Shown in pieces: positions 5,471 to 16,475 of a stretch of 44,679 nt of DNA. Source of the DNA: Bdellovibrio sp. (GTDB taxonomy: Bacteria; Bdellovibrionota; Bdellovibrionia; Bdellovibrionales; Bdellovibrionaceae); the NCBI GenBank assembly GCA_025359945.1, contig JANYDD010000005.1:1-44679 (forward strand), given 5' to 3'. Position numbers and translations under genes: made by a program. The notes beneath the pieces were generated by a model. It did not search any database. It was not told the origin of the DNA and saw only the letters and a list, made by a program, of their open reading frames with translations. Numbering within the stretch: position 1 is the first letter of the stretch; each line of letters opens with the position of its first letter.

Positions 5471-5543
5471 TTTATGGACTCCTCAAACTATTCATTCACA
5501 TGTTATTATGTTCAAACGAAATCGTTTAGGTCAAAAGGTTCTC

Positions 5544-7385
5544 ATGCTTTTCCCTCGAATTACTAATTTTGCTAAGGTCAAATGTCAGTCACCAACTGTT
5601 TTTGGACTTTCGTCGGTGATGCTTTTTCTTTTCTTGTGTGGGTGTCAGTGGAGCTCATCCGAAAAAAACCACGTTCTGATCGTGGCTGTGGACCGATTGG
5701 GATTTCAGGATCTTCACTGCAACCAAGACGAAACCCAAGGCAGTTCTGGATTTCAGTTTTTATGTCAGCAGGCAACTCGATTTACACATGCGTACACACC
5801 GTCTTTGCAGTCCAGATCTGCACTAGCTTCAGTTTTAACGGGTCTATACCCCTTTCAACATTTGGTTCGTGATCACAAAAGTCATTTTTTAAAAGCTTCC
5901 GAGTTCACTGTTGCTGAGGGCTTTTCCGAACTTGGATACCGCACATCTTTTTTTACCAGCGGCCCACCAATTTTTAGAACATCGGGTTTGCAGCAAGGCT
6001 TCGAGGTCTTTGACGAAAGCTTTCGACCCACGCTTCAGCGTCAATTTTTGCCCGTTGAAAAAATCCTAAGTCAATATTGGCAATGGAGAAAAGAAAACTG
6101 GGGCGACAATACTTTTTCAGTAATTTATCTATCCGATTTGAATCACCCCGAAGTGGCGACTAAAAATGAATTGGGCGAAATTCGCAATCTTACGATCGAC
6201 AGTCAGCTCGAGACCATTAGTCTATCGCTGGGAAATTTGATGACCGATCTTCAAAAAACCAGTTCCTGGAAAAAAACAGATCTTATATTGATGGGTCTTC
6301 AGGGCCGAAACTCGGCGGGACAAAATAGTATTCCTTGGCTGGATCTTAGAAGTTCGATGTCACATATTACTTTGCTTTGGAAAAAATCATCAGATACTGC
6401 GCTGCCTGCGCTAGATAGCATGTCCAATGAAAATTTCTCGCTGGTGGATGTTGGATCGACGTTGGCTAAAATGGCTGGCCAAAAAAAAGAAGCCGCTCGG
6501 GAAAACCCAGTGGATCAACGATTTAAAATAATTTCACTAACCGATCCCGCAGAGCGTGAGCAAAACGAAAAGCGCTGGATTTTGACCGAAAGCGCCTGGG
6601 GCAGATCTCGTCTTGGTTCGGCACTTCTTTTCTCGGTGCGGGCTCAGGATCAGGTTTATATTCAAGGCACGCTTGAAACTTTCTTTAACACCCTGACTGA
6701 CTTGTCCGAAACCGTTCCCGTCCCCGAGAACGATCTTTCAATTCAGTTGTTCCGAAATCAAGTGGCGCAATGGTTGGCGGATTGGCAAACGCCTTTTTTA
6801 GCCCCGGTCAGGCAGAATGCTTTTAATCCTGTATTGGCTAGGGCGTTTAATTTTGAAGTTTGGAATTTTTTTTCTGCGGCAAAAAAAGCGGACTTTTTAA
6901 CAAGCTTGAAATCAAATCTGCCGCTGATTAGGCACATGCAGGAGTACTATCTTTTGCAAAGCAAAAAATGGGAATGGCTAGCAAAACATCATTCGGGCGA
7001 GCTTCGACAATTGGCCTTTCTTTTTGTTCGCCCCAACCATAACGCGCGATTCGCGTCGGCCTGCCTGAATCTGTTTTTTCAGCGACCCCGTCTTTCTGAA
7101 GTTAAAAAGCTTTGCGACGAAAAGAACATCTGGTCTTTGGCTGCGTTTCTGGCATCGCAGGAAGAGCCTTCTCCTAGAAATGGTTTATATCGACAGCTGG
7201 TCAAAAATTTTTATTTCGCATCGTTGGACCGGCGGATATTGGAAAATAATTGGGGACTGGGGCTGCCGCTAGACCCCAATATCGCAGAAAAAAACTTGGT
7301 TTCAAATTTTGAGATTATCTTATCCTTGCCCCAAAATTTAAAGCTGCGCCAAAGTCTGGATCGGGACGCAGCATCTTTGGAATAA
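5544..7385 (+). CDS. sulfatase-fold lipoprotein, probably inactive
   Basis: This predicted lipoprotein of about 613 residues resembles the sulfatase/alkaline phosphatase superfamily at its N-terminus. Seen: a signal peptide ending in FLFLCGC (lipobox-like), VLIVAVDRLGFQDL matching the first metal-binding Asp strand, and SRSALASVLTGLYPFQH matching the sulfatase block around the nucleophile. No Cys/Ser-x-Pro-x-Arg formylglycine motif is present. The later segment that should read S-D-H-G reads MGLQGRNS, so metal ligands appear missing. The C-terminal third (from about residue 400) has no recognisable domain. I chose the ATG at 5544 because AAGG lies six bases upstream; an earlier ATG at 5508 has no ribosome site. 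It probably binds rather than cleaves a substrate, which is an inference. Confidence 0.7.
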   Translation: MLFPRITNFAKVKCQSPTVFGLSSVMLFLFLCGCQWSSSEKNHVLIVAVDRLGFQDLHCNQDETQGSSGFQFLCQQATRFTHAYTPSLQSRSALASVLTGLYPFQHLVRDHKSHFLKASEFTVAEGFSELGYRTSFFTSGPPIFRTSGLQQGFEVFDESFRPTLQRQFLPVEKILSQYWQWRKENWGDNTFSVIYLSDLNHPEVATKNELGEIRNLTIDSQLETISLSLGNLMTDLQKTSSWKKTDLILMGLQGRNSAGQNSIPWLDLRSSMSHITLLWKKSSDTALPALDSMSNENFSLVDVGSTLAKMAGQKKEAARENPVDQRFKIISLTDPAEREQNEKRWILTESAWGRSRLGSALLFSVRAQDQVYIQGTLETFFNTLTDLSETVPVPENDLSIQLFRNQVAQWLADWQTPFLAPVRQNAFNPVLARAFNFEVWNFFSAAKKADFLTSLKSNLPLIRHMQEYYLLQSKKWEWLAKHHSGELRQLAFLFVRPNHNARFASACLNLFFQRPRLSEVKKLCDEKNIWSLAAFLASQEEPSPRNGLYRQLVKNFYFASLDRRILENNWGLGLPLDPNIAEKNLVSNFEIILSLPQNLKLRQSLDRDAASLE

Positions 7386-7387
7386 CC

Positions 7388-7990
7388 TCAAAGCGACAAA
7401 TGTCCTAAGGTGAAAGGGATCTCGGGATTCAAGTGTACAATCTGGTTAAAAATTTCTTTTAGGGATTCCGTCGAGGGATTAAAATAATCGGATTGAAATT
7501 GCGAATGAAAAAGGAAGAAAATTTGATCATTACTTTGAATTTCAAGCTGCCCCGTATTGGGAAAAATTTCCGACTGCAGCCCAAGACCTGCTAAAGCTAA
7601 GGGTACCGGCGACGAAAACAAAAGCGAATCCGCCGCCGATACACTGATGAGAAAAAACTTATTACCCCTTTTTAAAACCAAATGGGGTGAACCGCATTGG
7701 GCCCAAGAAAAATTTCGACCTTGAATTCTGACGATCAACACTTCAGCAAGGCTAGAATATTTTTTTTCATTCTTCATTTCTAAAAATTGATTGAGCTTAA
7801 AAATTTTTTCAGTCAACGACTCCGACGGCGTGTTCAGAATCTCTGCGATTTCATTTTTTTGACCTTCAGCTGACCAATCCGTCAGGACAAAAAACTCTTG
7901 CGGATCATTCCCTTTAATTAACTGGGGGTGAGGCCGCATTTGATTGCCAATCTGATACGAAAGAAAATTTACGCTTTGTTCAGAGTCCAT
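7388..7990 (-). CDS. PP2C-like protein lacking metal-binding residues
   Basis: This 200-residue soluble protein resembles a degenerate PP2C/SpoIIE-type phosphatase. Seen: FFVLTDWSAEGQKN where PP2C enzymes have a D-G-x-G strand, LIVRIQGRNFSWAQCGSPHLVLKRG in the place of the G-D-S-R-x-Y-L-x-R-x-G strand pair, and IQSNDQIFFLFHSQF in the place of G-D-x-L-L-L-x-S-D-G. The aspartates that bind metal in true PP2C enzymes are thus replaced in all three blocks. It is the last gene of the FHA operon and overlaps the preceding FHA gene by 11 bases, which supports a joint role in phosphothreonine signalling. The family assignment comes from motif spacing only. Confidence 0.6.
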   Translation of the reverse strand: MDSEQSVNFLSYQIGNQMRPHPQLIKGNDPQEFFVLTDWSAEGQKNEIAEILNTPSESLTEKIFKLNQFLEMKNEKKYSSLAEVLIVRIQGRNFSWAQCGSPHLVLKRGNKFFLISVSAADSLLFSSPVPLALAGLGLQSEIFPNTGQLEIQSNDQIFFLFHSQFQSDYFNPSTESLKEIFNQIVHLNPEIPFTLGHLSL

Positions 7991-9845
7991 ATTTTTTCAG
8001 TTTCAGTTGAGATTTTTGATAATAGTCTTCACCAGCATAACTTTGATCTAAAATTTTCTTCCACTTTCCTTTGGCTGCGTCGACTTCGCCGACACTTTCC
8101 TCAAGAATTCCTTCTTGATAAAGATTTTGCATCAATTTCTTGTGATCTTTCTGTGCCATTTCTAGTTTAGTTTTTATTTTTTCATCCTGAGGCGCTATTT
8201 CAAGGCCACTTTTTAAGCTAACAATCGCGGTTTTTAAATCGCCCGATTTTAAAGCTTGATCTGCTTTTTTATCTAGGGAAGCAACTCTTTCAGACATTTT
8301 GCTTTGGATAGAACTGACTTGACGCTTGGCCTTTGATTTTAATCCTTCTGGGTCCGGAAGCGAAAGTTCTGAAACTTGCTTGAACTCTTTCAAAGCTAGT
8401 GCGAAATTTTCTTTTTCTAATTGGGAACTCGCTTTTTGAAATTGATTTTTTAGTTTTTGAACCTGCTCGCGGTAGTCTTTGTTTTTGGCCTCAAGCATGG
8501 ATTTCTGAATCCTGTTTCGTTCAAGCTCACCTTTCAGATTGCTGATATCTGGATGGTCGGGATTCAAAGCCATCACACTGGACAAGCACTGATCCAAATC
8601 GGCGAGCACCCAATTGGCACTCATATTTTTTCGGCACGATTGAACTTGCCGTTGAACTTTTTCCTCGATCTGAATACGATCTTTTTCTTTTCTTTCAAGA
8701 TCTTCCTTGTCGCGCAGGGTTTTCAAGGCAAGCTCGGACATTTCCTCGATTTGTTTAGACTCCTCGTAAAATGGCAAAACTTGATGAATCTTTATCATTT
8801 CCTGACGGGCCATTTCATACTTTCCCTGCATCAAAAGTTGCTGGCCGGTGATGTAAGTTTGTTGGACATATTCTTTTTGGTTAGCAGGAAGGGCTGCGAA
8901 GGATTTTTCTTTTTTTGTTTCTGTGTTCGCAGAATCGATACTTTTTTCAGGCTTTTCGGCGGGGATTAAAAAAAGGCCACCTAAAACTAAAATTCCCGCC
9001 ATTGCATAAACCGCTAGTTTAAAATTTTTGTTTTCTTTAAATTTTAAGACCAAGGGCGGGAATTGATTTTGCAGATGGGGCTCAAAATTTTCTACAGGAA
9101 TATCAGAACCTCGATCGGAAAAAGCAACGGGTTGAATGACTCCTGGATCAATCTGTTGAACTTTTTTTTCAAAATTGGGATCTCGAAGCTCAAACTGAAA
9201 CAAAAGATCGCTGACTGAAATGGAATCGTAGCTTTGCAAAGGAGTCCAATCTTCAGAGCTTAAAGGCCGTCCGTTCAAATGGGTTCCGTTGGACGATTGC
9301 AAATCGCGAATAAGATACTGGCCGTTTTGAAGTTTGATTTCAAAATGACGACGACTCATTTTTTGGTGATCTACAAAAATGGAACAAGGCGTGTCCCTGC
9401 CCGCGACCCAGGAATCGCCTTCTAACTTGTACAAGTTCCGGGCCAGCCCTCGGTGATCTAAAAATTTTAGATAGGCCTTCAAATTTTGTCCGCCAACCAT
9501 GGTTTTTTCGCCAGCATCCAAGTTATCGGTGGTCTGCGAATGGGCTGAATAGGTTGAATCCGTAAACTCGAATTCATAGGGTGGAACTCGAAATCGCGCC
9601 GAATCCCGCAGATTCATTTTATCGATGACTTGATCCTCTAAATATAAAAGTCCATAGCGAGATTCACTCTTGAGCTGCCACCCGCCGTCTTCAAATTTAA
9701 GTTCAAAATGCAGTCGCGAAATACCAGGTTCTTGATCTAAAACAATATCGTTTTCTGATCCTCGACCGACCTTATAGATTTTTTTTCTTGAGAGTTCTAA
9801 TTGCTGAACCTCTTGATTTCCTTTGATTACTTTTATCAGTGCCAT
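7980..9845 (-). CDS. double FHA-domain membrane protein with coiled-coil/TPR-like domain
   Basis: This 621-residue protein likely binds phosphothreonine peptides through two N-terminal FHA domains. Seen: the first FHA has VGRGSENDIVLD and ISRLHFEL (about residues 30-50), though its L-x-x-S-x-N-G block is degraded. The second is complete, with AGRDTPCSIFVD, MSRRHFEI and LQSSNGTHLNGR (about 155-205). One transmembrane helix (about 280-300, VLGGLFLIPAEK) follows, then some 300 residues of charged helical repeats suggesting TPR or coiled coil. Start: the ATG at 9845 overlaps the upstream stop as TGATG, which fits better than the longer frame. Because FHA domains are cytoplasmic, the C-terminal helical part is predicted periplasmic. 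Confidence 0.88.
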   Translation of the reverse strand: MALIKVIKGNQEVQQLELSRKKIYKVGRGSENDIVLDQEPGISRLHFELKFEDGGWQLKSESRYGLLYLEDQVIDKMNLRDSARFRVPPYEFEFTDSTYSAHSQTTDNLDAGEKTMVGGQNLKAYLKFLDHRGLARNLYKLEGDSWVAGRDTPCSIFVDHQKMSRRHFEIKLQNGQYLIRDLQSSNGTHLNGRPLSSEDWTPLQSYDSISVSDLLFQFELRDPNFEKKVQQIDPGVIQPVAFSDRGSDIPVENFEPHLQNQFPPLVLKFKENKNFKLAVYAMAGILVLGGLFLIPAEKPEKSIDSANTETKKEKSFAALPANQKEYVQQTYITGQQLLMQGKYEMARQEMIKIHQVLPFYEESKQIEEMSELALKTLRDKEDLERKEKDRIQIEEKVQRQVQSCRKNMSANWVLADLDQCLSSVMALNPDHPDISNLKGELERNRIQKSMLEAKNKDYREQVQKLKNQFQKASSQLEKENFALALKEFKQVSELSLPDPEGLKSKAKRQVSSIQSKMSERVASLDKKADQALKSGDLKTAIVSLKSGLEIAPQDEKIKTKLEMAQKDHKKLMQNLYQEGILEESVGEVDAAKGKWKKILDQSYAGEDYYQKSQLKLKKYGL

Positions 9846-10927
9846 CAGTACCGTCCCTGCACTTTCATAGAGCACTCGTCGAAATAAAGTTTGGCCTCTT
9901 TATATGTAGGATCGCTGGGATCTTTTAGCATCACGATCACTTTTGAAAAAGCGTCCGCGCAAAGTCTATAGTTATCCTTCGATTTGTAGAGCCGGCCCTG
10001 ATTCATATTGAATTTGACGATCTCATCAAACCGCTTTCTGGCCAGAACCAAGTATTTTTTAGAAAGATCGTGTTGCGGATAAAATGAAAGTGCCGCTTGA
10101 AAGGAAAGAATGGATCGACCATACTGCCCCTGCCGATAATCGCGAAATCCCTTCAAATAATGCTGCAGAGCCAGCTGCAACTGAGGCGTGTCAGCCCCTG
10201 ATTTTTGTTGGTCTTTTTGAATCGTTTGAATATTACTTTCGGCAGCAGCCATCTCTTTAAAAGCCGCTTCACTTTGCCGCAATGTCGATTTTTCCTTTTT
10301 AGTGTCGGGCATTAAAAACAAATAACCCACGACTAGCAAAACCGCGCCAACAATTGAATAAAAGCGAACCCGACTTTGACCAGCAGAAGCCGAAGGTAGG
10401 GGTCTATAACTTTGCTGTTGATTCTGAAAACTGGGTTGTTCCGGAAACGCCACATTAAGGGGCCTAGGTTTTGGATCGGTTTTAATCGCAACTGCATAAG
10501 AGACTGTGGAAGCAACAGTCGGCTGAGAATTCGACGGCCCAGCAGAATTCGCAGCGCTGATCCGAACTGTGGCCTGGTCCATTTCTGCTGTCGCCAAGCG
10601 AACAGAAATCAATTTGAAAATAAATTCTGTATCGCCCACCTGAAGTCTGGAATTATTTTCCAACGGGGCATTTTGAATTTTCAAGCCATTCACGTACAGG
10701 AAATTTTTTTGGCTAATGTTATGAATGGTGAGTAGACCGTCTTCTTGCTTAATCTCGAAATGAAATCGCGAAACCTTCGGATCATTTCGCAAACACAAAT
10801 CATTGTCGTCGCCCCGACCTGCCGTGATCACGGGTTTTTGAAATTGAAAAACTTCGCCCTGATGAGGGCCCTTCAGGATCTCAAGTTTGAAGTTTTTTAA
10901 AGAAGTTAATACCGGAGCAGCACTCAT
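9845..10927 (-). CDS. FHA-domain membrane protein with TPR-like region
   Basis: This 360-residue paralogue of its downstream neighbour has a single N-terminal FHA domain: AGRGDDNDLCLR and VSRFHFEI (about residues 32-58), then a divergent block ending in LYVNGLKI. A proline/serine-rich linker follows, one transmembrane helix (about 197-212, ending YLFLMPDTKKEKS) and a C-terminal helical repeat region (about 255-355) of TPR type. The membrane-exit sequence closely matches that of the next protein (LFLIPAEKPEKS), which points to duplication. The start ATG overlaps the upstream stop by four bases (ATGA). It probably recruits a phosphoprotein to the inner membrane; the partner is not known. Confidence 0.85.
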   Translation of the reverse strand: MSAAPVLTSLKNFKLEILKGPHQGEVFQFQKPVITAGRGDDNDLCLRNDPKVSRFHFEIKQEDGLLTIHNISQKNFLYVNGLKIQNAPLENNSRLQVGDTEFIFKLISVRLATAEMDQATVRISAANSAGPSNSQPTVASTVSYAVAIKTDPKPRPLNVAFPEQPSFQNQQQSYRPLPSASAGQSRVRFYSIVGAVLLVVGYLFLMPDTKKEKSTLRQSEAAFKEMAAAESNIQTIQKDQQKSGADTPQLQLALQHYLKGFRDYRQGQYGRSILSFQAALSFYPQHDLSKKYLVLARKRFDEIVKFNMNQGRLYKSKDNYRLCADAFSKVIVMLKDPSDPTYKEAKLYFDECSMKVQGRY

Positions 10928-12537
10928 GCGGCTTGTGCCTCTTCATCTTGCGAGAAAGTGATAATAAAATATTCAGCCTGTCCGTGAGGATTTCGTAGAG
11001 AATGGCAACTGACTTTTAAGTTATGGCCACCCACTTCAATCTGATCAAAGAAAATATTTTCCTGAGGCGATCTAGCTTGTTCCATCAATTCAGTAATATT
11101 TTTTTGAACGGCTTGATCCGGGAACTGTTGGACCGGTTGGTTCTCGATTTGTCCCGCTGAAACATTTAGTAAATCCTGAAAGGGTCGATTGCATTTAATC
11201 ATTCGGCCCTCGGCGGTTAGGATCAAGCAAGGATAGCCGATCATTTCTGACAGCAAACCCATCTCGACCTCGCGCGAAAAATTTCCTATGGGCTCGGCAC
11301 TTTTAACGCCTTGAGCGGCGCGCACCAAAAGACTATTTAAACCCGTCATCATTTGTTGGAATGCGGGAAATCGAATCGGAATTTCAATGTGGTCTTTGTT
11401 TTCTTTTAAAGCCTGATCCAGTTCCGAATTTAATTTTAACATTGGGTATTCAATAAGTCGGTTCAATACAAAAAAGATGACCAGACCTAAAATCACGCCC
11501 AGCGAAAGCATTTGGATGTAAAGGCTTAGCGCACGACCCTCGTCAAAAGCTAACGTGCCCGGATTATAAATTATCACCGCATACGCTTTAGCAATATTTT
11601 GTTGAATTTCAGCATCGTAAACTAAAATCGGCACTCCGGCGCCGATCAGCCCCGAAAATTCGTCGGTCACTTCTTTGGTTTGGCCTTTTAATTTTTTTAC
11701 AAAGCCGATTTCTTTGGGCTGCATTCCGGCGCGCTCGGGAGGCGAGATAATTTTGCCTTCTCGCGAGACAATATAAACGTCGTCGATACCCTCTTCGCGC
11801 AAGACCATCTGGGTGTCGAAGGATGCGATTTCATTCGATCGAATTATTTTTTCGTTAGCCAATGCCAGCGATCGGGCCACGGTCAACGCTCGCCTGCGAC
11901 TTTCGTTCGAAATACTTTCAGAAGTAATTTGCTTCATCGGGATGACCGACAAAAAGGTCATCATTAAAATAAAAATCCCGATAAATCCCATCACGATCAT
12001 TTTAAATTCGAAAGTCAGTGTTAGCTTGTAAACGCCTGGCATCACCACTTGGTCAAAATAAAGTTGAAGTTTCTCTAAAGACGTTTCCAGCGAAAAAGAT
12101 TTAGGTACTGGCATCGACGAAGACAATCCAGTCCCACCAGAAGACAAAGGCGCAGACAATGGCACAGACATAGGCACTGGCACGCCGATTTGACGCGGCC
12201 GTTGAGCGGCGTCTCGTGCAGAACTCAAAAGTCCCTGCAGCAGACTTTCCTGCACTTGAATCAAATCGCAAATGACTTGATAGACGCTAAACTTATCACC
12301 AAATTTAAGCAGGCCGCCTTGGATTCGAATTCCGTTCAGGAAAGTACCATTGGATGAATTCAAGTCCGCAAGCAAAACCTTGTCGGAAAGAACATTGATT
12401 TCAAGATGCTCCTTAGAAATTCCATTGTCTGGCAATTGAATGTCACACTGGGTGCTGCGACCCAATTTATTTTTGCCGTTTTTTAATGGATATATTTGGC
12501 CGGCCTGTTGACCGGTCAAAATTCTAATGGCCCACAT
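10924..12537 (-). CDS. FHA-domain transmembrane sensor with PAS-like domain
   Basis: This protein of about 537 residues has an N-terminal FHA domain (LGRSTQCDIQLP, ISKEHLEI, LNSSNGTFLNG, all key residues kept), a long Pro/Ser linker and a transmembrane helix (about 178-200). A periplasmic sensor-like region (about 205-335) follows, with VYIVSREGKIISPP typical of a Cache/PAS-type pocket. Then come a second helix (about 338-360), a HAMP-like segment, and a C-terminal PAS-like domain (LILTAEGRMIKCNRPFQDLL). No kinase, cyclase or methyl-acceptor output follows, which is unusual. Start: the ATG at 12537 (MWAIRILTG) puts the FHA strand at the N-terminus; an ATG five codons earlier is possible. The gene overlaps the DUF192 gene. 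Confidence 0.85.
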   Translation of the reverse strand: MWAIRILTGQQAGQIYPLKNGKNKLGRSTQCDIQLPDNGISKEHLEINVLSDKVLLADLNSSNGTFLNGIRIQGGLLKFGDKFSVYQVICDLIQVQESLLQGLLSSARDAAQRPRQIGVPVPMSVPLSAPLSSGGTGLSSSMPVPKSFSLETSLEKLQLYFDQVVMPGVYKLTLTFEFKMIVMGFIGIFILMMTFLSVIPMKQITSESISNESRRRALTVARSLALANEKIIRSNEIASFDTQMVLREEGIDDVYIVSREGKIISPPERAGMQPKEIGFVKKLKGQTKEVTDEFSGLIGAGVPILVYDAEIQQNIAKAYAVIIYNPGTLAFDEGRALSLYIQMLSLGVILGLVIFFVLNRLIEYPMLKLNSELDQALKENKDHIEIPIRFPAFQQMMTGLNSLLVRAAQGVKSAEPIGNFSREVEMGLLSEMIGYPCLILTAEGRMIKCNRPFQDLLNVSAGQIENQPVQQFPDQAVQKNITELMEQARSPQENIFFDQIEVGGHNLKVSCHSLRNPHGQAEYFIITFSQDEEAQAA

Positions 12538-12868
12538 GCAACTGATCTCCAATTTTAATTTGCAACTTTTGAACTGTGCCCGCCGCGAGCTCGATCACTG
12601 AGTCTGCCTTTCTCTGCGGCCACACCATGCGAAAAGGTTCGACGTCACTTTTTATAGAAGTCACCTTCATGGATTTATCGACGAAGACGCAATCAATCGG
12701 GTACTTCATAAAAAAAGTGTGAATGCTATTGCATCTCAGAATCCATAACCCCGCATTGGCAGACAATGAGGAACTGCCCAACAGACCTTGCATCCTGGAT
12801 AACAAGCTTGAAGCTTTGCAAAGTTCTTCAATCAATAAAAGATTTTCCCCACCTTTAAAAAGTTTCAT
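12524..12868 (-). CDS. DUF192 family protein
   Basis: This 114-residue protein belongs to the DUF192 family (PF02643). Seen: RMQGLLGSSSLSANAGLWI followed by CNSIHTFFMKYPIDCVFVDK, the family's hallmark G-L-L-G and S-I-H-T-x-x-M-x-x-P-I-D-x-x-F signatures, and a C-terminal VIELAAGTV. Many family members are exported; this copy has no signal peptide and is probably cytoplasmic. Its start touches the end of the TadC-like gene and its end overlaps the FHA sensor gene, so it is co-translated with secretion/FHA genes. DUF192 genes near type II/Tad secretion genes are known, but the function is not established. Confidence 0.88.
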   Translation of the reverse strand: MKLFKGGENLLLIEELCKASSLLSRMQGLLGSSSLSANAGLWILRCNSIHTFFMKYPIDCVFVDKSMKVTSIKSDVEPFRMVWPQRKADSVIELAAGTVQKLQIKIGDQLHVGH

Positions 12869-13770
12869 TATTTGCCACCGGTCATAAATTGGATGGCCAC
12901 CGGTCCAAAGACCACGATGAAAACAGCGGGCAAAATAAATAAAATCATTGGCACCAACATCAATTGCGAAGCCCTTGCACCAGCTTTCTCGGCATTGACA
13001 AAACGCTGTTGGCGGATTTGCACGGATTGATCTTTTAGTACTTGCGAAATGCTAGCTCCGGTGGCATCGGCATCAATCAGAACAGCCACAAAACTTGTGA
13101 TCTCGCCCGTGTCTAGTCGGCGGCTCAGACCTCGAAGAGCGTCGGCGCGAGAAGCTCCTAGTTTAATATCTTTCAACACAATGTTCAGTTCGTCGGCTAA
13201 AACACGACCGTCGGCTTTTTCGGCAATTCGCTGAATCGCAGAAATAAAATCCAAACCGGCCTCGGTCGATAACGCCAGAAGATCAGCAAAAAAGGGAAGA
13301 TCCGAACGCACCGATAACTCGCGAGATTTTTTTTCGCCTCGTGCATACAAAAATGGAAAGTAAGCGCCGCCAGGAAAAATAGCTAGCACCAGAAAAATGG
13401 GCAAGCCCATTTCAAGTGTAAAATTCAGCAGCACCACCAGAGCCGGAAACACTAAGCCCCAAAAAATTTGCAGGCCAATAAATTCGTCCACATTAAGTTC
13501 CTGGGAAAGGCCAGAGGTCATGATCAGTTTTTCAATGTTCTTTCGATACGACGCACTTTTGACTTTTTGCGAATGTTGAAGTGTCAGCTGGTACACCAAT
13601 GGCCTAGAAAAATTAATCAAAAATGATTTGGACTTCACTGGCTGAGATCCGCTGGCCCACGACAGAACCTCTTGGTCAGCACTTTGATTAAGTAAGACCG
13701 TGACAAAAGAATATACGGCGAAAGCGGCCAGCAGCAGTCCGCCGATCAAAATAAATTCTGCGCTTCCCAA
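12868..13770 (-). CDS. tadC: TadC-like type II secretion system F-domain protein
   Basis: This 300-residue inner-membrane protein of the T2SSF family forms the platform of Tad/Flp-pilus type assembly machines. Seen: an N-terminal transmembrane helix (about residues 4-25), a pair of helices around 100-135, the cytoplasmic F domain (DLPFFADLLALSTEAGLDFISAIQR, typical of TadB/TadC), a second conserved block RALRGLSRRLDTGEITSFVAVL-like, and a C-terminal helix. Start choice: the frame is open up to 13887, but AAAGGAG lies five bases before a TTG at 13770. This gives the normal TadC length and removes an apparent overlap with maf. TadB and TadA are not adjacent; the gene is first in the FHA operon. 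Confidence 0.88.
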   Translation of the reverse strand: MGSAEFILIGGLLLAAFAVYSFVTVLLNQSADQEVLSWASGSQPVKSKSFLINFSRPLVYQLTLQHSQKVKSASYRKNIEKLIMTSGLSQELNVDEFIGLQIFWGLVFPALVVLLNFTLEMGLPIFLVLAIFPGGAYFPFLYARGEKKSRELSVRSDLPFFADLLALSTEAGLDFISAIQRIAEKADGRVLADELNIVLKDIKLGASRADALRGLSRRLDTGEITSFVAVLIDADATGASISQVLKDQSVQIRQQRFVNAEKAGARASQLMLVPMILFILPAVFIVVFGPVAIQFMTGGK

Positions 13771-13775
13771 CTTCG

Positions 13776-13782
13776 CTCCTTT
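13776..13782 (-). promoter_or_regulatory. strong ribosome-binding site deciding a TTG start
   Basis: On the minus strand AAAGGAG is followed by five bases and TTG (13770-13768). It is the best ribosome site in the region and fixes the start of the TadC-like gene within the longer open frame. Confidence 0.8.
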
Positions 13783-13798
13783 GTGATGAATTGTCCGT

Positions 13799-14404
13799 GT
13801 GGAAAAATGGATCCTGGCTTCATCATCACCGCGCCGAAAAAAAATTTTGCAAGATGCAGGAATTTTGTTTTCGGTTCTTCCAATCAATGTATCGGAAAAG
13901 ATTGATGAAAATTTAAATTTGGATGATGCTTTAATGGCATTAACTAGACAAAAGGCCGAAGCTTGTCTTCAGTCCAGTGCCCAGCTAAAAAAAGAAACCC
14001 ATTTTATTCTTGCGGCAGACACGGTCGTGGTTTTGCAAAAAGCAAATCTCCGATTCGAAATTTTGGGGAAACCCGTCGACCAGGATGACGCTTTTAGAAC
14101 CCTCGAGAAATTGTCGAACCGAAAACACTTGGTAAAAACAGCCGTCGGAGTGCTTGAATCTCAAAATCTGCAGTTTCATAGTTTTGTAAGCACGACCGAA
14201 GTCTGGTTTCATCGGTTGAGCGAAAGTCAGATCAAAAATTATCTTTTTCTAGACAAACCCTTTGATAAAGCTGGTAGCTACGGAATTCAGGACCAAAATC
14301 ATTCGTTCGTCGCCGCCCTTTGCGGAAGCGTATCCAACGTGATCGGATTGCCTTTGCCGCAAACGTTGGCCCTTATCAAAAAAACAGAAAGCTTAAACAC
14401 ATGA
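13799..14404 (+). CDS. maf: Maf family nucleotide pyrophosphatase
   Basis: This 201-residue cytoplasmic protein of the Maf/YhdE family hydrolyses modified or canonical nucleoside triphosphates to monophosphates and is linked to septum control. Seen: the N-terminal ILASSSPRRKKIL, AADTVV (about residue 73) with the catalytic Asp, and DKAGSYGIQ (about 155-163), all standard Maf motifs. The loop between AADTVV and GKP is slightly longer than usual. Start is GTG at 13799, which puts the conserved LASxSPRR directly at the N-terminus; the ribosome site is weak. It overlaps yggS by four bases (ATGA) and heads the maf-yggS-proC-divIVA group. Confidence 0.93.
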   Translation: MEKWILASSSPRRKKILQDAGILFSVLPINVSEKIDENLNLDDALMALTRQKAEACLQSSAQLKKETHFILAADTVVVLQKANLRFEILGKPVDQDDAFRTLEKLSNRKHLVKTAVGVLESQNLQFHSFVSTTEVWFHRLSESQIKNYLFLDKPFDKAGSYGIQDQNHSFVAALCGSVSNVIGLPLPQTLALIKKTESLNT

Positions 14405-15051
14405 TTATTTCTTCGAAAGCTCAAGAAATATTAAAAGCTATTCCTTCTTTGGTCACAGTGGTTGCGGTCAGCAAACTTCAGCCCATAGAAAAAATAAAGG
14501 CCCTGTACGATTTGGGGCATCGCGATTTTGGCGAAAATTACGTGCAGGAGTTTATTCAGAAAAAAGATTTGCTGCCAAAAGATATTCGCTGGCATTTTAT
14601 TGGTAGTCTTCAATCAAAAAAGCTGAAGTTTTTAGTTGGCGCTGTCCAATTAATTCACTCAGTAGATTCGCTTGATCACGCGGTAAAAATAAATGGCCTG
14701 GCTGAAAGCTTGGGCCTCCAACAAAAAATCTTAGTTCAGATTAACCTGTCTAACGAAACCACCAAGTCGGGAATTTTTGAATCCGATCTTGAAGCGTTCT
14801 TGATGGCTTTAAAACCTTTAGCTTCCATTTTGGTTGGGGGCTTTATGACGATGCCCCCATTGGATCAAGAACCCGAAAAAGTGCGCCCTTATTTTTCTTG
14901 GCTTTCTGCGCTTTTAAATAATTATAAAAAGACACACCCAGCTTTAAGTATTTTGTCGATGGGCACAAGCCATGATTATCAAGTGGCTCTTGAACAAGGT
15001 AGCAATTGCATTCGGATCGGAACTTTACTTTTTGGAGAAAGAGAAAAATGA
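14401..15051 (+). CDS. yggS: YggS family pyridoxal-phosphate homeostasis protein
   Basis: This 216-residue PLP-binding protein of the YggS/PROSC family controls the free pyridoxal phosphate and amino-acid balance. Seen: VAVSKLQP with the PLP-binding Lys (about residue 24), FGENYVQE, WHFIGSLQSKK, MTMPPL, and SMGTSHDYQVALEQGSNCIRIG followed by FGER. The frame is open further upstream, but the ATG at 14401 overlapping the maf stop (ATGA) gives the usual N-terminus. It ends in another ATGA overlap with proC, so the three genes are translationally coupled. Two small changes from the consensus are seen: Q-S-K-K for Q-x-N-K, and S-M-G-T-S for S-M-G-M-S. Confidence 0.93.
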   Translation: MIISSKAQEILKAIPSLVTVVAVSKLQPIEKIKALYDLGHRDFGENYVQEFIQKKDLLPKDIRWHFIGSLQSKKLKFLVGAVQLIHSVDSLDHAVKINGLAESLGLQQKILVQINLSNETTKSGIFESDLEAFLMALKPLASILVGGFMTMPPLDQEPEKVRPYFSWLSALLNNYKKTHPALSILSMGTSHDYQVALEQGSNCIRIGTLLFGEREK

Positions 15052-15866
15052 AAAATCATTTAAAAATTGGATTTATCGGTTTAGGAAATATGGCGCAAAA
15101 TATTATTCAAGGATTGTTAGAGCAAAACGTGGCTACTCCTCAGCAGGTTTTTGGTTCTAATCGCAGCCCGGGAAAACTTCAGAAAGTGGTCGACCACTGG
15201 AAGATTCAAGGGTTAAAGACCAATGAAGAAGTGATCGACGCGGCTGATGTCATTATTCTTGCAACCAAACCTCAAGACTTTGCTTCGGCGATAGATCCAG
15301 TGATTTCTTCGTTTTTGCCTCATCACATTGTCCTTAGTTTGGCTGCTGGGATCACTTTGCAGGCGCTTCAAAAAAAAATCCCACAAGCCCGAGTCGTGCG
15401 AGTAATTCCAAACATTCCGACTCAAATAAAAAATGGTGTGATTGGATATTTTTCTTCCGAGAATGAAAACTCGATTGATTTGGTGGTCGAGGATTTGTTT
15501 CAGCCTTTAGGCTCTGTTTTCAAGATGGAAAACGAAGAGCAGTTGGAAGCCTTAATGATTTCCACTTCTAGCGGGGTAGGCTTTGTCTACGAGCTGATGA
15601 TGTACTTCGCCGATTGGATCGAGGAACGTGGCTTTGACACGCCCACCGCCAGAAAGATGGTTGTCGATACTTTTTTAGGTGCTAGTCAGTTGGCATCTCA
15701 GCATCCCGAAACTTCGCTTGAAGAATTGCAAAATAAAGTGGCCTCGCGAAAAGGAGTCACAGCAGCTGGACTTGAGTCCATGCGCGAGTCCGAAATCGAG
15801 CGTCTTTTGAGAATAAGTTTCGGAAAGTCAGTGCTTCGCAACCAAGAGCTTGCGAAACTGAGTTAG
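15048..15866 (+). CDS. proC: pyrroline-5-carboxylate reductase family protein (ProC-like)
   Basis: This 272-residue protein of the P5C reductase family has enzymes that make proline from pyrroline-5-carboxylate with NAD(P)H. Seen: a Rossmann motif IGFIGLGNMAQNI at the N-terminus, ILATKPQDF, SLAAGITLQAL, VRVIPNIPTQIKNGV and a C-terminal block KGVTAAGLESM. Two consensus motifs deviate: P-N-T-P is P-N-I-P and S-P-G-G-T-T is S-R-K-G-V-T, so activity on P5C should not be taken for granted. Start: ATG at 15048, four-base overlap with yggS, with GGAG upstream. The place between yggS and divIVA mirrors the division-associated clusters of other bacteria. Confidence 0.85.
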   Translation: MKNHLKIGFIGLGNMAQNIIQGLLEQNVATPQQVFGSNRSPGKLQKVVDHWKIQGLKTNEEVIDAADVIILATKPQDFASAIDPVISSFLPHHIVLSLAAGITLQALQKKIPQARVVRVIPNIPTQIKNGVIGYFSSENENSIDLVVEDLFQPLGSVFKMENEEQLEALMISTSSGVGFVYELMMYFADWIEERGFDTPTARKMVVDTFLGASQLASQHPETSLEELQNKVASRKGVTAAGLESMRESEIERLLRISFGKSVLRNQELAKLS

Positions 15867-15920
15867 CGTCCTTATTCTAAAAGTGGATGTCTTAAATCTT
15901 TAGCTTCATGGAGGAAGCCA

Positions 15921-16475
15921 ATGAAACTGACCCCGATCGATATTTCTCAAAAAACATTCGGCAAAAAAATGTTTGGTTTGGATGAATCAGAAGTTTTTGA
16001 TTTTCTTCAAACCATTTCCCAACAACTGGAAAGCATGATTCACGAGCGAAATACTTTTCGCGAAGCTTTGCGCGAAAAAGAATTGCGTCTACATGATTAC
16101 AAAGAAAAAGATCATATGCTCCAGACCACAATTCAAACCGCAAGCCAGATGTCCGAAAGATTAAGACAGGACTCGGAACGCGAAGCCCGATTGATTGTTG
16201 CGGATGCTCAACAAAAAGCCGAGATGCTGGGCCGAGACGCGCGTGATTCGTTAAAAAAACTGTATCAAGAAATGGCCGAATTGAAAAAAGCCAGAATGCA
16301 ATTTGAAGTTAATTTAAAAGCTTTGGCCGAAGCCCATATCGCCATGATCGACCAGGGTGAAAAGCTGATGCCATCAATTAAACTTCCCGAAGCTGTTTTC
16401 GTCGACACCAAGCGACCCGCCAACTCCGAAAGAACGCTCGAGAAATCAACGGGCATTTCACCGCTGAGCACCTGA
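15921..16475 (+). CDS. divIVA: DivIVA domain protein
   Basis: This 184-residue coiled-coil protein is of DivIVA type and would mark curved membrane at poles or septa and recruit partners. Seen: the N-terminal LTPIDISQKTFGKKMFGLDESEVFDFL block matching the DivIVA membrane-binding motif (Leu in place of the common Tyr in G-Y-D), then a long charged helix (about residues 30-145) and a variable tail. GGAGG lies six bases before the ATG. It is 54 bases downstream of proC. DivIVA is rare in Gram-negative bacteria but known in Bdellovibrio, where it affects progeny shape, which supports the taxonomic call. Confidence 0.92.
   Translation: MKLTPIDISQKTFGKKMFGLDESEVFDFLQTISQQLESMIHERNTFREALREKELRLHDYKEKDHMLQTTIQTASQMSERLRQDSEREARLIVADAQQKAEMLGRDARDSLKKLYQEMAELKKARMQFEVNLKALAEAHIAMIDQGEKLMPSIKLPEAVFVDTKRPANSERTLEKSTGISPLST

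Follow-up and report, generated by a model that had tools for sequence, protein, structure and literature searches.

A TadC-led operon in a Bdellovibrionaceae genome pairs a Tad platform subunit with a putative phosphothreonine-reading module and a PP2C-fold protein that has lost its core aspartates

Bd0474 of Bdellovibrio bacteriovorus HD100 is required exactly at the step in which a predatory bacterium passes from prey contact to killing. An orthologue of its gene lies in the window analysed here, a stretch of 44,679 nucleotides (nt) from Bdellovibrio sp. (assembly GCA_025359945.1, contig JANYDD010000005.1) that forms contig C44 in a draft genome of 2.74 Mb. The gene belongs to a minus-strand operon of six open reading frames (ORFs) spanning positions 13770 to 7388, in the order TadC, DUF192, FHA1-PAS, FHA2-TPR, FHA3 (two FHA domains, then TPR) and a PP2C-like protein. 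What does an operon of this composition do? We propose, with a probability of about 0.6, that it provides the TadC platform subunit and a phosphothreonine-reading control module of a single, Kil-like Tad predation machine. The operon and its need in predation are already known. In the main texts of mostly open papers, we found no earlier report of Bd0475 (the sixth protein) as a PP2C-fold pseudo-phosphatase, of a CitA-like sensor in Bd0472, or of a six-gene unit that spans the phylum and is continuous with the Tad cluster in sister classes. A search for a Bdellovibrio pseudophosphatase, or for a Tad system with FHA and PP2C proteins, likewise gave nothing relevant beyond the paper on Kil discussed below. 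The genes and their parts are as follows.

12868..13770, minus strand: TadC, second inner-membrane platform protein of the Tad (type IVb/IVc) pilus, Bd0470 orthologue (Pfam T2SSF, 2e-19)
12524..12868, minus strand: small DUF192 (COG1430) protein, Bd0471 orthologue (Pfam DUF192, 5.4e-19; position kept in relatives)
10924..12537, minus strand: FHA1, predicted transmembrane sensor (FHA, membrane helix, CitA-like periplasmic domain, membrane helix, PAS), Bd0472 orthologue (Pfam FHA, 1e-15, and PAS; AlphaFold; VIA)
12289..12468, minus strand: FHA domain of FHA1 (phosphothreonine-site residues R, S, H, N and G invariant, 46/46)
11542..11931, minus strand: predicted periplasmic CitA-type (PAS/PDC) sensor domain of FHA1, residues 203-332 (VIA matches)
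10954..11229, minus strand: cytoplasmic PAS domain of FHA1 (Pfam PAS_9, 2.8e-5; PAS_4, 5.2e-5)
9845..10927, minus strand: FHA2 (FHA, membrane helix near residues 189-205, TPR), Bd0473 orthologue (Pfam FHA, 5e-12; TPR_2, 2e-4)
7980..9839, minus strand: FHA3 (FHA, FHA, membrane helix, TPR), Bd0474 orthologue (Pfam FHA, 8.7e-29, two domains; full-length matches in relatives)
7388..7990, minus strand: predicted PP2C-fold pseudo-phosphatase, Bd0475 orthologue (AlphaFold, Foldseek, VIA; core aspartates lost)

Adjacent ORFs overlap by 1, 14, 4 and 11 nt. The initial annotation, according to which all six genes touch or overlap, thus holds at four junctions; at the fifth, FHA2 and FHA3 lie 5 nt apart when FHA3 is read from the ATG at 9839. 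The TadC gene begins with TTG and has an AAAGGAG motif upstream, and a pattern search for a FliA (sigma-28) promoter in front of it found none on the TadC strand. Genes for Maf, YggS, ProC and DivIVA flank the operon on the opposite strand, with a convergent sulfatase-like gene at the other side. The latter (5508-7385) encodes a protein of the sulfatase/alkaline-phosphatase superfamily and adjoins the operon across most of the order, not in the other classes examined.

In locus L160 (relative G036), which we take to be that of B. bacteriovorus HD100, FHA2, FHA3 and the sixth protein are 386, 674 and 228 residues long when read from their likely starts. These lengths equal those printed for Bd0473, Bd0474 and Bd0475 (PMC12034629), and the window operon is therefore the orthologue of HD100 bd0470-bd0475, in another genus. 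The two share the same six genes, their order and the neighbours on the Maf and DivIVA side, and bd0470-bd0475 has been described as a single operon (PMC12034629). According to transposon data (PMC6561027), the Bd0470 (TadC) mutant cannot attach to, kill or round prey, and the Bd0474 mutant attaches, yet neither kills nor rounds them. A two-hybrid test further showed binding of Bd0474 to Bd0075, a TPR protein (PMC12034629); contig C103 of the present genome encodes an orthologue of Bd0075, 46% identical across most of the part searched. Where a genome has no clear FHA3, a Bd0075 match is often missing as well (7 of the 12 Bd0075-negative genomes, from family f18 and others, uncorrected for kinship), a joint absence that agrees with the reported interaction.

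The six genes form an evolutionary unit. Within the same family and order, 40/40 fetched loci have them in identical order to the extent that their contigs allow, apart from the absence of a detectable DUF192 gene in locus L066, and each locus has an ORF of about 190-250 residues downstream of FHA3. This gene order is also that of 80 named loci, almost all of them assigned to Bdellovibrionales or Bdellovibrionaceae and including B. bacteriovorus kdesi (L084), provided that the contig is of sufficient length; one of them lists DUF192 ahead of TadC, solely through an over-long ORF start. It extends to 20 loci from other classes of the phylum, barring locus ends and divergent or split ORFs that hide a gene, with the TadC gene of L167 lying a few kilobases upstream of the remaining block. 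The genome collection was scanned with the TadC alignment (A3), the FHA3 alignment (A1) being too variable; window TadC is 64% identical to its orthologue in locus L063. FHA3-type matches (E < 1e-30) occur in 97/114 genomes sampled across the phylum, which consists mostly of predatory bacteria. The recurrence of the same gene order in all loci with enough sequence rules out a chance assembly. An apparent fusion of the FHA3 and PP2C-like genes in L128 has an unknown base in the stop codon and was therefore dropped.

To which machine does TadC belong? The genome encodes four T2SSF proteins: two with double domains, and two single-domain proteins, window TadC and a lone TadB on contig C90. The operon around TadB (positions 9392-16204 of locus L071) comprises genes for TadB, a TadZ-TadA fusion ATPase, a secretin (RcpA/CpaC), CpaB and TadE-like or pilin-like proteins, and no TadC gene. 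The separation of TadC from TadA and TadB, remarked on in the initial annotation, is thereby borne out, both partners being placed on C90. By comparison with locus L182, this operon matches the HD100 TAD operon bd0109-bd0119 (PMC5430801). HD100 shows the same division, with TadA and TadB in bd0109-bd0119 and tadC apart as bd0470, and both tadC and bd0108-0121 drop in host-independent strains (PMC3818213).

In at least 11 of the 20 sister-class loci, RcpA and TadZA genes come after the six-gene block on the same strand; pilin-like genes and CpaB mostly precede these, and TadB mostly follows them. Since the block runs on into Tad genes in these loci, it is part of one Tad cluster. Bdellovibrionales, like some sister-class lineages (L164, L165 and L177), have a split cluster, which leaves window TadC as the only partner in its genome for the TadB/TadA operon on C90. 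A TadV-type prepilin peptidase is present in the sister-class cluster L174 (Peptidase_A24, 1.9e-14); none was seen in the C90 operon, the part of the genome searched for TadV. A DUF192 gene is also found in a Tad operon of Firmicutes (PMC12786226).

The AlphaFold model of FHA1 (predicted local distance difference test score, pLDDT, 86.9) has the architecture of a transmembrane sensor, with long helices on both sides of a periplasmic domain. Residues 1-97 match FHA domains (VIA Z 19.6, 6i2r), and residues 203-332 match periplasmic domains of the CitA type (Z 14.4-14.7 for 9mrh, 8bgb, 2j80 and 1p0z; root-mean-square deviation, rmsd, 2.3-2.8 over 114-121 residues). In both FHA2 and FHA3 a membrane helix precedes TPR helices, and the TPR part of Bd0474 has been predicted to lie outside the cytoplasm (PMC12034629). 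The phosphothreonine-site residues are invariant in FHA1, as listed above, and mostly kept in FHA2; in the second FHA domain of FHA3, R, S and N are kept in 27/27 sequences and His is often replaced by Gln. From these residues we infer that the FHA domains may read phosphothreonine.

A suggestion that two of the FHA proteins have a common sequence behind the membrane helix, and hence arose by duplication, was not confirmed by comparison. BLAST of the post-helix regions returned an E value of 0.18 with only a short 'TKKEKS' string alike, and profile comparison gave only generic TPR similarity at 9% identity. A duplication of FHA2 and FHA3 is therefore not supported by these regions. Their FHA domains are related (32%), as expected of any FHA pair. 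A further FHA cluster, judged by eye, lies on contig C3 (L073 6658-14214), where two FHA proteins surround a MotA/ExbB-like protein and an OmpA/MotB-like long coiled-coil protein and a protease-like gene adjoins them.

The sixth protein, of 200 residues, gives only a weak Pfam match to SpoIIE (E 0.095). Its AlphaFold model, built from 52 window and locus sequences, has a pLDDT of 90.7 and a predicted template modelling score of 0.87, and the best Foldseek matches are PP2C-family phosphatases, the first being PppA of the Pseudomonas aeruginosa type VI phospho-switch (6jkv, E 6e-11). VIA aligns the protein to 2pk0 with Z 15.9 and rmsd 4.2 over 200 residues, and a profile built on 37 relatives finds tPphA at the sequence level (E 0.0013). 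We counted the four core metal-binding aspartates (motifs ED, DG, [ST]DG and DN) on a joint alignment of 91 sequences, 72 from Bdellovibrionales and 19 from sister classes. None of the four is kept in 71/72 Bdellovibrionales proteins and a single one in the remaining protein, the replacements being Pro, Thr, Ser, Arg and others. In the sister classes, 8/19, among them those of L171 and L174, have all four, and the DG aspartate is kept in 17/19. The third-metal aspartate is absent in 91/91, so that phosphatase activity is uncertain for the sister-class proteins as well. Model and alignment together confirm the initial description of a PP2C-like protein without its aspartates; neither a structure of another kind nor scattering of the six genes in relatives, the outcomes that the initial annotation named as refuting its overall reading, was found.

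In a FastTree phylogeny of TadC, FHA1 and FHA3, Bdellovibrionales form one group without core aspartates, and full sites are scattered through the other group. On the simplest reading, which depends on the midpoint root, an ancestral PP2C site would have been intact, decayed repeatedly and been lost entirely in Bdellovibrionales. Since the reading frames are intact despite the lost site, the protein is probably kept for something besides catalysis. Repeated loss of the active site, in a gene that is always kept, suggests an enzyme that has naturally become a binding protein. A published multimer model docks Bd0475, labelled hypothetical there, on Bd0473 with an interface predicted template modelling score of 0.604 (PMC12034629).

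As initially annotated, no kinase is encoded in the operon, and a motif search of about 140 loci that include it found no kinase-motif ORF. A weak Alpha_kinase match on FHA2 (E 0.026) covers the TPR region and was taken as chance. A search of the whole genome returned two Hanks kinases and one ordinary PP2C, encoded elsewhere. On contig C28 (L075 901-6033), a protein of 1710 residues has a Hanks kinase domain followed by a part that resembles an AAA-type ATPase, and is a candidate kinase for the FHA proteins.

These observations can be assembled into a working model. An envelope or prey-contact signal would be sensed by FHA1 through its periplasmic domain, by FHA2 and FHA3 through their TPR parts, or by both routes, and would be linked to threonine phosphorylation through a kinase from outside the operon. 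FHA1 and FHA3 would read the phosphothreonine, and the FHA domains would gather phosphorylated partners at the TadB/TadC platform and in this way license Tad assembly or firing after contact. FHA2 and FHA3 may connect to periplasmic partners such as Bd0075, and the pseudo-PP2C may act as a non-catalytic phosphoprotein binder or adaptor, perhaps on FHA2, and not as an enzyme. The initial annotation had pictured a membrane scaffold that reads a phosphorylation state set elsewhere and acts on a Tad platform; the Tad-linked membrane FHA module and the two Hanks kinases encoded elsewhere agree with this picture, and the sensor architecture of FHA1 goes beyond a scaffold. By analogy with the type VI phospho-switch, a more specific version can be drawn, in which a Tad predation machine has its own FHA relay: a CitA-like sensor with FHA output, two periplasm-reaching FHA-TPR relays and a PP2C that, having lost catalysis repeatedly, now reads threonine phosphates instead of erasing them would lead from prey contact to platform activation. 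We regard this version as tentative, at somewhat under even odds. A reading that combines platform, sensor, phospho-readers and pseudo-phosphatase names the residues to mutate and is concrete enough to be tested, and Bd0475, so far a hypothetical protein, acquires a fold and a probable function.

Several points weigh against a phosphothreonine-reading module. The first FHA domain of FHA3 has no Asn-Gly pair. All three FHA proteins also give Pfam matches to Yop-YscD_cpl, and phosphothreonine can be dispensable for YscD-type domains with the FHA fold. The TPR and periplasmic parts might be purely structural. Phosphosites, a kinase partner and phosphopeptide binding are postulates of the model, and the predation phenotypes come from B. 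bacteriovorus, not from the window organism. Finally, the nearly complete relative G040 (L183) keeps the whole TadB operon, with no TadC or FHA3 found, which reflects either a real loss or an assembly gap.

The plainest rival takes up some of these points: the FHA proteins would form a constitutive structural ring or scaffold in the inner membrane that holds the Tad platform, as YscD/PscD do in type III secretion, with the TPR parts extending into the periplasm, no phospho-switch, and the PP2C-fold protein as a packing subunit. The YscD-type Pfam matches suit such a ring, as do YscD/PscD among the structural matches of FHA1, the lack of a kinase in any locus, the lost PP2C catalysis and a strict co-conservation that is typical of structural subunits. 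We nevertheless consider it rather unlikely, given the conservation of the phosphothreonine site in FHA1 and in the second domain of FHA3, the periplasmic sensor and PAS domains of FHA1, and the complete core sites of some sister-class PP2Cs. It is highly improbable that the genes are a mere conserved neighbourhood, co-transcribed for convenience, with DUF192 and the PP2C-like protein unrelated to Tad. The flanking Maf, YggS, ProC, DivIVA and sulfatase-like genes are indeed also conserved within the order, but in other classes the flanks change and the six genes stay joined, often running on into Tad genes; the Firmicutes DUF192 gene and the published docking of Bd0475 on Bd0473 point the same way. 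Least probable of all is a still active phosphatase with an unusual metal site, for which the fully retained PP2C fold would speak, as the near-complete loss of core aspartates in Bdellovibrionales and the absence of the third-metal aspartate in all 91 sequences argue against it.

The preferred reading of a Tad platform with a phosphothreonine-reading module has parallels. Kil of Myxococcus xanthus (MXAN_3102-3108 and MXAN_4648-4661) mediates contact-dependent killing and resembles the window genome in its Tad platform, its genes in two clusters and its many FHA proteins. FHA proteins have been proposed to signal in such Tad-like predation machines, and Bdellovibrionales homologues were listed (PMC8460266). 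The two differ in the ATPase: KilF is fused to FHA, whereas the C90 enzyme is a TadZ-TadA fusion and no FHA match occurs on C90. The likeness in prey killing derives from published phenotypes of the HD100 orthologues. The type VI PpkA-Fha1-PppA pathway, which contains the top structural match of the sixth protein, likewise places an FHA scaffold and a PP2C-fold protein beside a contact-dependent envelope machine. Unlike that pathway, the window operon has no kinase in the locus, a PP2C that is inactive by sequence, and three membrane FHA proteins, of which the first carries a sensor domain; its machine is Tad, with no type VI parts.

Tad/Flp loci share the TadC platform, with TadB, TadZ-TadA, RcpA, CpaB and TadE-like proteins encoded on C90 here and in one joint cluster in many sister-class genomes. 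We know of no standard Tad locus with FHA and (pseudo-)PP2C genes beside TadC. A further gene recurs behind TadB, encoding an RHS-repeat/DUF6531 protein of about 550 residues (L071 7707-9365 on C90, L178 17641-19344, L182 5195-6847 and L183 7931-9568). The window's genome, HD100 (as Bd0109 of the hit locus) and sister-class Tad clusters all have it, so that the RHS protein seems to be a standing component of this Tad type. After the RHS gene, a small secreted-looking protein (L071 7410-7694) takes the position of Bd0108; mutation of that hit-locus protein leads to prey-independent growth.

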